DNA from: a virus
DNA length: 31,497 bases
IMG/VR virus record: IMGVR_UViG_3300023184_000366
Location: 1-31,497 of that record
Direction: 5' to 3' (one strand)
In this document: positions 27,838-31,497 of the stretch, one piece after another
How positions within the stretch are numbered: position 1 is the first letter of the stretch
Layout of the letters: each line of letters opens with the position of its first letter
Notes under the pieces: generated by a model
Database searches by the model: none
Seen by the model: the letters and a program-made list of their open reading frames with translations, nothing else
What the model was told of the DNA's origin: nothing
Made by a program: the position numbers and the translations under genes

Positions 27838-29415
27838 ATGGCATATGATCGTCCAGGAGTCTACGTAAGAGAGACTCCATTTACCAGTAATCTTGCTAGC
27901 CGTACCGCTACGTCTGTTGCCGCTTTTGTAGGTGAAGCAGAACGTGGTCCCGAAGTAGCAACTCTAATTAGTTCGTGGAATGATTACAAATCTAACTACG
28001 GAGAAATCTCCAACACATACGATTTGGGCTACGCCGTCTATCATTACTTTGCTAATGGTGGTCGTGATGCTTACGTATCACGAGTAATTGATACCACTGC
28101 TCTTGCTTCCACAACCACCTTTCAGGGAACCATTACAGGTGCATCAGCAGCAAGCACACTGTTTACTTTGAAAGCCGCTTCTAAAGGCGCATGGGGTGAC
28201 CAACTTTCAGCGGTTATTACGTTTGATCCAAGCACTCTGACGGATCCAACAGGAACACCAAAGGTCAACTCAACAAGCCTGTTCTCATTGGCAGTTAACT
28301 TGGTAAGATCAGGTACGACTGTAGAAGTTGAGCGTTGGCAAGAATTGTCTTTTGACGCTACCTCTAGCCGTTACTTCAAGAGTGTTCTTGATTTGTACTC
28401 AGCATACTTTAAAGTTTCAGGAACACCAGCCACAATCTCAAGCAACGTCACAATTGCTGTAAGTGGTATCACATCAAGTGTTTACAGCAAGACACTTACT
28501 CTTTCAGGAGGTTCAGATGCCGTTAATGCAAGTGCTATCACTGCTGACACTGAGTGGGCAACTGCTGTAAATAACTTAGACATGGTTGCTGGTCCGTTGT
28601 TAATTAACCTTGTTGGACAAACATCCAGCACACGTGTTAACCAAGCCCTTGCATATGCAGCAAACCGTGCCGATTCATTTGTTATCATTGACAGCCCACT
28701 GTCAGCAGCAACAAAAGCAGATATGCAAACTGCAATAGCGGGCTACAGCACCACCAATGGTGCTTTTGGTGCAGTGTACTTCCCAGCATTAAAAATGTAT
28801 GACCCAGCAAAGAGCGGTCCAACGGCTATCCGTGACACCTACGTAGGTGGTGCAATTGCTGGAGCGTATGTACGTTCTGAGACTCTTCGTGGTGTTGCTA
28901 AAGCCCCAGCAGGTTATTTCTTGGATCTACAAAATGTGTTTGGTCTTGCAGCAACGCTTTCTGATGCAGATCAGGGAACTTTGTACAACACTAACCATGT
29001 AAACTGTTTGCGTCTAATCCCAGGAGGCGGAACCATTATCAATGGTGCTCGCACCTTGGCAAAGAACCGCCCAGAAAAGTACATTCCAATCCGTCGCACC
29101 CTTTCGTACTTGCGAGTAATGTTAGATGCACAAACACAATTTGCGGTCTTTGAACCAAACGACGAGCGTTTGTGGGATCGCCTTAACGTATCTATTTCCA
29201 GTGTTCTTACAGACTTCTGGGCTAAAGGTAATTTAAAAGGTGTTAATGCAACTAGCGCCTTCTACATTGTTTGTGATTCGTCAAATAACACGTCATCAAG
29301 TATTCAAGATGGATATGTAAACATTGAGGTTGGTGTCGCATTGCAATACCCAGCCGAATTCATTGTAATCAACCTTACCCAGTCGGCTGGCAGCGGCTTC
29401 GCTGGAAACCTCTAA
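27838..29415 (+). CDS. Tail sheath protein
   Basis: This 525-residue protein has TTTAGGAG before the ATG. It starts DRPGVYVRETPF, the typical sheath N-terminus. AFVGEAERGP and WNDYKSNYG follow, then the sheath core NHVNCLRLIPGGGTIINGARTL, YIPIRRTLSYLRVM, FEPNDERLWDRL and the C-terminal strand INIEVGVALQYPAEFIVI-like segment. Sheath subunits form the contractile outer tube; contraction drives the inner tube through the envelope. The middle 150 residues (TGASAASTLFTL, TISSNVTIAVSG) are a variable surface domain. The call fixes the phage as a myovirus-type particle. Codon use is clean and the gene is intact. Confidence 0.95.
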   Translation: MAYDRPGVYVRETPFTSNLASRTATSVAAFVGEAERGPEVATLISSWNDYKSNYGEISNTYDLGYAVYHYFANGGRDAYVSRVIDTTALASTTTFQGTITGASAASTLFTLKAASKGAWGDQLSAVITFDPSTLTDPTGTPKVNSTSLFSLAVNLVRSGTTVEVERWQELSFDATSSRYFKSVLDLYSAYFKVSGTPATISSNVTIAVSGITSSVYSKTLTLSGGSDAVNASAITADTEWATAVNNLDMVAGPLLINLVGQTSSTRVNQALAYAANRADSFVIIDSPLSAATKADMQTAIAGYSTTNGAFGAVYFPALKMYDPAKSGPTAIRDTYVGGAIAGAYVRSETLRGVAKAPAGYFLDLQNVFGLAATLSDADQGTLYNTNHVNCLRLIPGGGTIINGARTLAKNRPEKYIPIRRTLSYLRVMLDAQTQFAVFEPNDERLWDRLNVSISSVLTDFWAKGNLKGVNATSAFYIVCDSSNNTSSSIQDGYVNIEVGVALQYPAEFIVINLTQSAGSGFAGNL

Positions 29416-29435: not shown

Positions 29436-30071
29436 ATGGCATCAGCAACAGTACTTCGTACCGATCCACTACGTAACTTTAAGTTCCGTGTGCAAATCAT
29501 TCCAAAGATGACTGGCAATCTTTCAAAAACCCTTAACGAAATTGGTGAATTGGGGTTTGCTCAAGTTAGTGGAATTTCGGTAACTAACGAAATCATTTCA
29601 TACCGAGAAGGTGGTATGAACACCCACCCACACAAAATGGTTGCTCAATCCGATTTTGCTCCTGTGTCTTTTGCACGTGGAGCATTTAGTGGACAAGGGC
29701 AATTGTTCCAGTGGCAGAAGTTTCTCCATGCGTGGCTGGATGGCGGAGTAGGCGGCGAGGCTGGCTTGGCTAGTGGTGATGGTGACTACCGTTGTGACAT
29801 CCTTGTGAAGGTTTATGACCATCCACATACCGCTTCCGAAGTTCAAGGTCAATCGGGATTGAAGTACCAATGGGATGGCAGCGAAATGATGGGCGCCATT
29901 GTGCCTGGTAAAGTAAAGTTTCAATTTAAACTTTACAACGCATGGCCTGGAGCGTACGCTTTGACTGACTTGAACGCTGGAGACAACGGCATTTTGATTC
30001 AGTCCATGACCGTACACCACGAAGGTTTCTATATAGACTGGGATGGATCAGAGAATTTGGCTATCAAATAA
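29436..30071 (+). CDS. Tail tube protein, T4 gp19-like
   Basis: This 211-residue protein follows the sheath gene, with AAGGAG about 12 bases before the ATG. DPLRNFKFRVQI, GFAQVSGISVTNEIISYREGG, and APVSFARGAFSGQGQLF match the gp19/Hcp-like tube fold, in which a GF-x-x-VSG strand and the YREGG turn are hallmarks. KFQFKLYNAWPGAYALTDLNAGDNG, with a following long strand (LIQSMTVHHEGFYI), is the conserved C-terminal part. Hexamers stack to form the inner tube through which DNA passes. The gene next to the sheath and before the chaperone is in the expected position. Confidence 0.92.
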   Translation: MASATVLRTDPLRNFKFRVQIIPKMTGNLSKTLNEIGELGFAQVSGISVTNEIISYREGGMNTHPHKMVAQSDFAPVSFARGAFSGQGQLFQWQKFLHAWLDGGVGGEAGLASGDGDYRCDILVKVYDHPHTASEVQGQSGLKYQWDGSEMMGAIVPGKVKFQFKLYNAWPGAYALTDLNAGDNGILIQSMTVHHEGFYIDWDGSENLAIK

Positions 30072-30111: not shown

Positions 30112-30894
30112 ATGGATACAAAACAACAAGCCGATGCGCTCAATGCTGCATTAGGTGATCCACCTCCAGAAATAACGGGACCTCCAGTAACACTTGTTGA
30201 TCTTATTTGTGGTGTCTTTAATACAGAGACCAACTCATGGGAGATAGAGGCTGAAGTACGAGAACTCAATGGCTTTGATGAAGAGGCACTTGCTTCTTTG
30301 GATAGCAAGAACGTCGTCTATGCCGAATACATGACGGCGCTTTTGAAGCGTGCTGTTGTACGGGTTGGTTCCATCATTATTGAGACTAACCCTGCCATCA
30401 TTGATGACCTCATCATTGGTGACAGAGATGTCTTGTTTCTTAAGATCATTGAAGCAACGTATGGCAAAGATCGTCAATACCAAGTGATTTGTAACACCTG
30501 CACAGCATCTAATGATGTCATTGTGTCTTTGGATGAGTTCACAAGGCGAGAAGTTGCTCATGACCCCAAACAACCATTAGAACACACCATTGCTGATGGC
30601 ACCACTATTAAGATGCGTCTGCCAAATGGTATGGACAGCCAGTTAGTTTCTAAAAAAGCAAAAAATACAGCAGAACAAAATACCCTTATGCTGGCACGCT
30701 GTGTTACCTCTCCACCAATGAACAATCCCCAGCAATGGGCTAAGACATTGGGAATGAAGGATAGAAATGACCTTGTCAAAATCCTGCTGGACAGCCAGCC
30801 AGGACCTGAGATTGGGGAGGTGAATGCCCAATGCGCTACGTGTGGAACAGATTTAAATATCGTGCTTGATTGGGCATCCCTTTTATTTGGTTAA
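30112..30894 (+). CDS. Tail assembly chaperone / gp26-like protein with two CxxC pairs
   Basis: This 260-residue protein has AGGAG before its ATG. A flexible N-terminus (to about 25) precedes a helical region (ELNGFDEEALASL, YAEYMTALLKRAVVRVG). The sequence VICNTCTASNDVIVSLDEF (126-144) and QCATCGTDLNIVLDW (240-254) supply two CxxC pairs that could form one zinc site, with a helix-rich segment between. This organisation resembles gp26-like chaperone or hub-assembly proteins of contractile phages. Position between the tube and the tape measure is that of tail-assembly chaperones. It overlaps an out-of-frame open region (30857-31033) that may encode a second chaperone part. Confidence 0.75.
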   Translation: MDTKQQADALNAALGDPPPEITGPPVTLVDLICGVFNTETNSWEIEAEVRELNGFDEEALASLDSKNVVYAEYMTALLKRAVVRVGSIIIETNPAIIDDLIIGDRDVLFLKIIEATYGKDRQYQVICNTCTASNDVIVSLDEFTRREVAHDPKQPLEHTIADGTTIKMRLPNGMDSQLVSKKAKNTAEQNTLMLARCVTSPPMNNPQQWAKTLGMKDRNDLVKILLDSQPGPEIGEVNAQCATCGTDLNIVLDWASLLFG

Positions 30895-31033
30895 CCTAAG
30901 TAATATATACTGGGAATACGATTTGATAGCCACGGTTTACAAGGGCTTTACGCTCAATGACATACAAAACATGGCAGTACGTCAAAGACGGTACTGGGCA
31001 AGCATGGGTAAATGGCGTAACTCTGGAGACTGA
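30887..31033 (+). CDS. Hidden chaperone partner, read by frameshift or from a TTG start
   Basis: A frame shifted +1 (equivalently -2) from the upstream gene is open from 30857 to a TGA at 31033, which lies just 6 bases before the tape measure ATG. It reads NIYWEYDLIATVYKGFTLND and then IQNMAVRQRRYWASMGKWR: a W..YD.I...Y..FT..DI..M...RR.YW pattern like the short second products of tail chaperones. The earliest ATG (30971) would drop the conserved first half. It could start at TTG 30887 or 30923, or be translated as an extension of the upstream protein by slipping in the shared open stretch 30857-30891 (around TCCCTTTTATTTGG). The slip site is not a textbook one, so mechanism is open. Confidence 0.55.
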   Translation: MVNLSNIYWEYDLIATVYKGFTLNDIQNMAVRQRRYWASMGKWRNSGD

Positions 31034-31039
31034 TGACAT

Positions 31040-31497
31040 ATGGCTGAAGAAGAGCGTGGATTAGGTGATGGTGCTTTAGGAGGGCGACCAGCATCCCGTG
31101 ATACCTCTGCGGTTACTGCCACAGTTGCTTTACGTTTAGACAAGTCGGTTGCGAAGTTGTGGATGACCACATACGATGAACTTACTGTTAAAGTCAAGAA
31201 ACTTAGAAATGAAATCAAGGAACTAAACAAAGAAGCAAATAAAACCACATCTGCAATTGCGGGGTTAAGTAGTGGTGGAACTGCCACTAACGCATCTACA
31301 TCAACTTCTTCGGCTATTTCCGCTGCTACAGAAGCAAGCAAAGCCAGTGTAACTCCCAAACCCTCTGGAGGTGGAGGTGGAGGTGGAGGTGGTGGAGGTA
31401 AAGGCTTAGATTCTCCTATGGTATCCGCTGCGGCTGCCGCTATGGGACCTGAAGCACAGGCTGCTTTGATGGCGGCTAAAGCAGCATTGAAGATTAT
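31040..31497 (+). CDS. Tape measure protein, N-terminal part (3' end outside window)
   Basis: The ATG has GGAG at 31025 and the frame stays open to the window edge for 152 complete codons. After a variable N-terminus (EERGLGDGALGG) come strands and a charged helix (LWMTTYDELTVKVKKLRNEI), then a Ser/Thr/Ala-rich linker with a run of 11 glycines, and then Ala/Met-rich helix (SPMVSAAAAAMGPEAQAALM). Alternating helix and low-complexity linkers are typical of tape measure proteins, which set tail length. Its place after the chaperone genes is decisive. The total length is unknown because the gene is cut by the window. Confidence 0.75.
   Translation, partial: MAEEERGLGDGALGGRPASRDTSAVTATVALRLDKSVAKLWMTTYDELTVKVKKLRNEIKELNKEANKTTSAIAGLSSGGTATNASTSTSSAISAATEASKASVTPKPSGGGGGGGGGGGKGLDSPMVSAAAAAMGPEAQAALMAAKAALKI

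Follow-up and report, generated by a model that had tools for sequence, protein, structure and literature searches.

The window analysed here, the entire 31,497-base stretch (G+C 45%) of the viral contig IMGVR_UViG_3300023184_000366, carries near its right end a gene for a 260-amino-acid protein that is followed by a conserved protein segment encoded in the +1 frame. Our comparative analysis suggests, with a probability of roughly 87%, that a contractile-tailed phage here encodes a tail assembly chaperone in two forms, the longer of which arises by +1 programmed ribosomal frameshifting, through P-site slippage on the tetranucleotide YUU_Y (Y, pyrimidine). Among the relatives compared, the extension and its frame are conserved at the sequence level, the YUU_Y is invariant and no start codon is conserved ahead of the extension; the slip of the ribosome at YUU_Y, its frequency and a division of labour between the two forms are what we infer from these features. 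In the mechanism proposed here, most ribosomes would stop at the TAA at 30892 and release the 260-amino-acid protein, and in a minority the tRNA-Leu on CUU (30880-30882) in the P site would slip one base forward to UUU. The slipped ribosomes would skip U30883, resume at UAU (TAT 30884) and add 49 residues up to position 31030, giving a long form of 306 amino acids (257 common residues plus 49) with the junction ...LDWASL-YLVNLSNIYWEYD.... Re-pairing of the YUU-reading tRNA on UUY in the P site would be the simplest mechanism for such a shift. By analogy with gpG/gpGT of phage lambda, the common part would coat the tape-measure protein, while the extension would recruit tail-tube subunits.

The shifted frame had been pointed out in a preliminary description of this DNA, which we could confirm in its main features. 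After the TAA at 30854-30856, the +1 frame has 58 open codons, beginning at 30857 and closed by the TGA at 31031-31033. Six bases separate this TGA from the start of the next gene at 31040, and the translation of the frame contains the pattern W.EYD...Y.GFT..DI..M...RR.YW. Of the extent originally assigned to the segment, 30857-31033, all is open, but only the part from about 30884 appears to be functional, since the +1 residues encoded between 30857 and 30883 just follow the zero frame. A search with the translated extension identified 41 viral contigs encoding the segment with 73-98% identity, and further relatives were collected by searches with the upstream protein and with alignments. Two non-redundant sets of 57 genes each (114 in total) were assembled, in which the upstream proteins share less than 90% amino acid identity within a set. 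Clade A is the clade of the window; clade B, which is about 30% identical to the window, comprises many metagenome phages and loci on actinobacterial chromosomes in addition to the Streptomyces phages BRock, LuckySocke and pSt2308. In each of the 114 relatives the +1 frame stays open beyond the zero-frame stop and encodes 46-83 residues, and a core R.R..W is common to all 60 extensions that were aligned. Weaker matches on Streptomyces chromosomes (L248, L249, L251-L274), which lack a comparable +1 domain beyond the next in-frame stop, were left out of these counts.

Stop codons and non-synonymous drift in the shifted frame of relatives, the comparison that the preliminary description had called for, were analyzed in clade A. 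None of the 57 sequences has a stop in the +1 frame, while 55 and 42 sequences have stops in the other two frames. Likewise, the ratio of non-synonymous to synonymous polymorphism (pN/pS) is 0.32 in the +1 frame compared to 1.5 and 1.3 in the other two frames, a ratio that is only qualitative because synonymous sites are near saturation. Differences between the sequences fall mostly on the third position of the +1-frame codons (17604/13318/31550 for the three positions over the 37 codons after the stop region). The shifted-frame observation is therefore real and far beyond chance, the segment belongs to a gene, and the clade A extension is, judged by these substitution patterns, under amino-acid selection. 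When modelled separately from the 260-amino-acid part, the extension is predicted to form three helices with a predicted local distance difference test score (pLDDT) of 83.5. In searches of Pfam and PHROGs with the extension of the window no PHROG was found, and the only Pfam hit, a sub-threshold match to arginine deiminase, was taken as chance. DUF6760 (PF20546) gave no match with this extension, and its matches with those of BRock, L159 (see below) and other relatives were sub-threshold.

The preliminary description had named no slip site, and we propose CTT_T at 30880-30883 on the basis of codon invariance. Only three of the 54 conserved columns of degenerate codons in clade A consist of a single codon. 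One of these encodes a Leu, four codons ahead of the stop, and is CTT in 57/57 sequences compared to 27% of Leu codons overall. Five or six codons are mixed in almost every other conserved Leu column; only the one right after CTT deviates, being restricted to TTA or CTA, as would be expected because a Tyr codon in the +1 frame constrains the choice; the zero-frame stop follows three codons later. Of 30 such columns in clade B, just one uses a single codon, a Phe at the corresponding place, with TTT in 57/57 sequences versus 27% overall. The base after CTT or TTT is always T or C in both clades, the site being UUU_C in 55/57 and UUU_U in 2/57 sequences of clade B and CUU_U in the window. The +1 frame of some relatives is open for no more than 3-4 codons ahead of the slip codon, and in L209 and L216 (TTT CGC TGA) the zero-frame stop lies one codon after it, which confines the shift to within a few codons of YUU_Y. 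Since the stop is found 5-6 codons after the slip codon in L206 and L238, the distance to the stop is not the conserved feature, and the codons that precede YUU and the stop are both variable. In bacteria, UUU_Y is known as a sequence on which +1 shifts occur particularly readily with no stop next to it (PMC5009743), and UUU_C is the site used in influenza PA-X, where UUC offers the Phe tRNA better pairing (PMC3498833), which makes P-site slippage plausible here.

The invariance of YUU_Y also bears on other ways in which the segment might be translated. It might be a separate small gene expressed by coupled re-initiation, starting at TTG 30866, 30887 or 30923 or at some other weak codon, given that these TTG codons are present in the window, that a truncated separate open reading frame (ORF) is annotated in several phages, and that a comparable segment forms a separate ORF with an overlapping start in L159, L250, LR756511 and Atu_ph07. 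However, 45 of the 114 relatives (20/57 and 25/57) contain no ATG, GTG or TTG before the conserved core, and of the two starts that the preliminary description had offered as its alternative, the one at 30887 is TCG in many relatives and the one at 30923 is CTG in most. We rejected initiation at any of the three TTG codons because these starts are not conserved; a separate gene would moreover leave the invariant YUU_Y unexplained, and we regard it as very unlikely. Slightly less probable still is a -2 shift in the manner of phage Mu (PMC5009743), which would lead to the same frame and insert an additional residue at the junction. Relatives differ in the bases ahead of YUU (TCC, TCA, GCA, TAC, CTG, TTG, ATC and others), so that re-pairing two bases back cannot be conserved, whereas YUU to UUY at +1 pairs well in all of them. 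The choice between +1 and -2, which the preliminary description had left open, thus leans towards +1 as far as the sequence tells. Our first reading was that the +1 shift takes place on the stop codon (GGU_UAA), a mechanism known from antizyme and Listeria tsh, and the stop is indeed found at the same distance in 57/57 clade A and 47/57 clade B sequences. It was dropped because in clade B the slip codon and the stop are separated by anything from 1 to 6 codons, with the UUU_Y unchanged. In addition, the codon preceding the stop differs between relatives and could in most cases not re-pair at +1, and all three stop codons occur at this place, leaving a shift at the stop as the least probable of these alternatives.

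Profile, predicted fold and position of the upstream gene also bear on the chaperone reading. The PF12322 (T4_baseplate) profile matches the 260-amino-acid protein with 46 bits, above the curated cut-off of 24.5, and its CxxC pairs are zinc-ribbon-like. Its AlphaFold2 model (pLDDT 92.4) has a predicted fold resembling those predicted for T4-like baseplate hub assembly proteins. A sequence search against solved structures gave nothing credible, and a Foldseek search of the model against the PDB gave no match below E 0.7. When Foldseek's candidates, and only these, were re-aligned with VIA-align, the top three solved structures were HK97 gp13 (2ob9, Z 7.4), YqbN (3klu, 7.0) and Rbstp2171 (3fgx, 6.9), all of which are phage tail assembly chaperones (PMC9603447). 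At the ranks below, Z drops to 4.3 for a phage-inducible chromosomal island (PICI) protein and to 3.4, with zinc-binding domains following. The predicted fold thus appears to match HK97-type tail assembly chaperones best among solved structures, and the weight of this modelled similarity lies in all top three matches being tail chaperones and not in the Z values. The position of the gene between the tail tube gene and a tape-measure-sized ORF is that of gpG/gpGT-type chaperones: in the clade A relatives the gene following the chaperone, a median of 5 nucleotides downstream, is where complete an ORF of 681-951 amino acids, which is the tape-measure position. Together with a second overlapping frame that is conserved as protein and a conserved slip sequence, likewise features of gpG/gpGT-type genes, the comparative evidence supports the chaperone idea of the preliminary description.

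Some observations weigh against a frameshifted chaperone. The structural Z-scores of the 260-amino-acid model are all below 8, and such values alone are weak and no proof. Since a Leu or Phe in frame 0 and a Phe in the +1 frame would force the same bases, codon invariance alone leaves room for a shift one codon earlier; that codon has no shared slippery property among the relatives, which argues against such a shift. A consistent downstream RNA structure as a stimulator was not found in ten sequences that were folded, with nine z-scores between about -1 and +1.6 and one at -2.3 (L127). Finally, some relatives carry the domain as a separate ORF in the -1 frame: a downstream helical segment with its own overlapping ATG or GTG start is present in L159 (a Lysobacter metagenome-assembled genome), L250 (Streptomyces), L296 (LR756511) and L299 (Atu_ph07). 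These separate ORFs suggest that split and frameshifted forms interchange. Our own extension profile matched L159 with 18.1 bits, above all 200 shuffles. The segments of L159 and L250 also weakly resemble DUF6760.

Tail chaperones made by frameshifting are known, with -1 shifts often found, -2 in Mu (PMC5009743) and a predicted +1 shift in HSTV-2 (PMC5009743, PMC8211752); what would be new here is a +1, YUU_Y-driven chaperone with two forms in the T4 gp26-type family. Similar to lambda gpG/gpGT and related systems, the upstream part has tail chaperones (HK97 gp13, YqbN and Rbstp2171) as its nearest solved folds. However, lambda shifts by -1 (PMC5009743) on a slip sequence of the type X_XXY_YYZ, while the window gene has its extension in the +1 frame and YUU_Y as its conserved element; in addition, the window gene is of the T4 gp26/PF12322 type with zinc-ribbon-like CxxC pairs and belongs to contractile-tailed phages. 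The haloarchaeal myovirus HSTV-2 shares the +1 direction, the contractile tail and the chaperone position (PMC5009743, PMC8211752), a likeness by description only, and differs in its archaeal host. Influenza PA-X (UCC_UUU_CGU) likewise involves slippage of the P-site from UUU to UUC with no adjacent stop (PMC3498833), corresponding to the predominant clade B site, whereas the window with its CUU_U falls outside the UUU_C class, the hosts here are bacterial and the A-site codon is not conserved in clade B. In prfB (release factor 2, CUU_UGA) a P-site CUU slips to UUU as proposed for the window, which in contrast has no stop in the A site; nor is there a prfB-type Shine-Dalgarno sequence about 3 nucleotides before the shift codon, the nearest such element in clade A starting 63 nucleotides upstream. 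Listeria tsh and SPP1 gp17.1* are likewise cases in which a +1 shift near the 3' end of a tail gene adds a C-terminal part (PMC5009743, PMC6316719), but their site is CCC before a stop and it is the tail tube protein that is extended. For phage 0305phi8-36 a two-gene chaperone was described without a frameshift (PMC2147016). We found no report of frameshifting in the PF12322 family in the open-licence papers that we searched, although an earlier report is possible, and the genome paper of phage SP-15 does not use the word frameshift.

A similar arrangement is found in a number of cultured phages. TTT C followed by the +1 domain is present in BRock, LuckySocke, pSt2308 and GiJojo, where the domain is annotated as a truncated small ORF in BRock, LuckySocke and GiJojo and not at all in pSt2308. 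An open +1 frame directly after such a site occurs in SP-15 (TTT TTT CAC), LIS04 (TTT TTT AGT), SagM-GXN1 (TTC TTT CGT), Mel-JY01 and RM378 (TTT TTT TGG) and the huge phage LR756508 (TTT CTA). These outer phages, whose hosts include Bacillus, Listeria, Streptococcus, Microcystis and Rhodothermus, in addition to the huge phage, have a gp26-like gene with similar layout. In SP-15 only an internal ORF of 39 amino acids (SP15_046) is annotated at the extension. The extensions of SP-15 and LIS04 are clearly homologous to each other, while homology of the SP-15 and RM378 extensions to that of the window was not supported by our own extension profile, so that for this outer group the evidence is the shared layout. 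We lean towards the view that +1 frameshifting on UUU_Y or CUU_Y is the general route to a two-form T4 gp26-type chaperone across a whole branch of contractile-tailed phages, and the branch would then probably take in phages of Actinobacteria, Bacillus, Listeria, Streptococcus, Microcystis and Rhodothermus and some huge phages. On balance, this would be a natural class of +1 recoding in bacteria that is deeply conserved, takes place without a stop codon at the site and shows no structural stimulator, and it would have escaped notice because annotations either omit the extension or shorten it to an internal start. Tail-chaperone frameshifting is textbook recoding, mostly -1, whereas here a +1 shift would occur across 114 distinct relatives at a simple tetranucleotide. 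If true, this would provide a concrete chaperone mechanism for T4 gp26-type proteins, which are usually named baseplate hub proteins, offer a natural family for measuring what makes YUU_Y slip, and correct many phage genome annotations. The cultured phages SP-15 (Bacillus subtilis W23) and BRock (Streptomyces) make the frameshift directly testable.

The other two single-codon columns of clade A are adjacent and read GAG GTG. GAG is used in 56/56 Glu codons (with GGG as the one exception) and GTG in 57/57, compared to a usage of 45% and 22%, respectively. Within the chaperone gene they make up a strong Shine-Dalgarno-like element, (A/G)GGAGGTG, 57 nucleotides before the slip codon, which is too far for the usual spacing of Shine-Dalgarno-like stimulators. 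No conserved start codon was found at a suitable spacing from GAGGTG in any frame in clade A, and the element may be involved in ribosome pausing or in something unrelated. A Shine-Dalgarno-like GAGGT in clade B was discarded as largely explained by codon usage (GAG 92% versus 70%).

The contractile-tail module at the right end of the window (Table 1) consists of the sheath and tube genes, the 260-amino-acid gene and the gene that follows it; no tRNA genes were found in the window.

Table 1. Features of the tail module at the right end of the window.
Feature	Position	Strand	Basis
Tail sheath protein	27838..29415	+	phrog_23, E 2e-44
Tail tube protein, T4 gp19-like	29436..30071	+	PF06841 (Phage_T4_gp19), E 1.8e-20
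Probable zero-frame tail chaperone gene, 260 amino acids, two CxxC pairs	30112..30894	+	PF12322 (T4_baseplate, gp26-like)
Invariant GAGGTG, Shine-Dalgarno-like	30817..30822	+	Codon invariance in clade A
Proposed +1 slip site CTT_T (zero frame CTT TTA)	30880..30883	+	Codon invariance in clades A and B
Zero-frame stop TAA	30892..30894	+	Clade A relatives have TAA, TGA or TAG here
+1-frame extension, 49 amino acids and TGA	30884..31033	+	Conservation, pN/pS, predicted helices
Putative tape-measure gene, start only (leaves the window)	31040..31497	+	ORF of 681-951 amino acids there in relatives

In T4 itself, gp26 and gp51 belong to the same Pfam family (PF12322) as the upstream protein but are without a +1 extension, and none was found after the homologue of Campylobacter phage CP220 either. 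In the T4 sequence AF158101 (115802-117228), gp26 and the adjoining, oppositely oriented gp51 both match PF12322 (E 8e-65 and 2e-53, respectively), and the two therefore look like paralogues.
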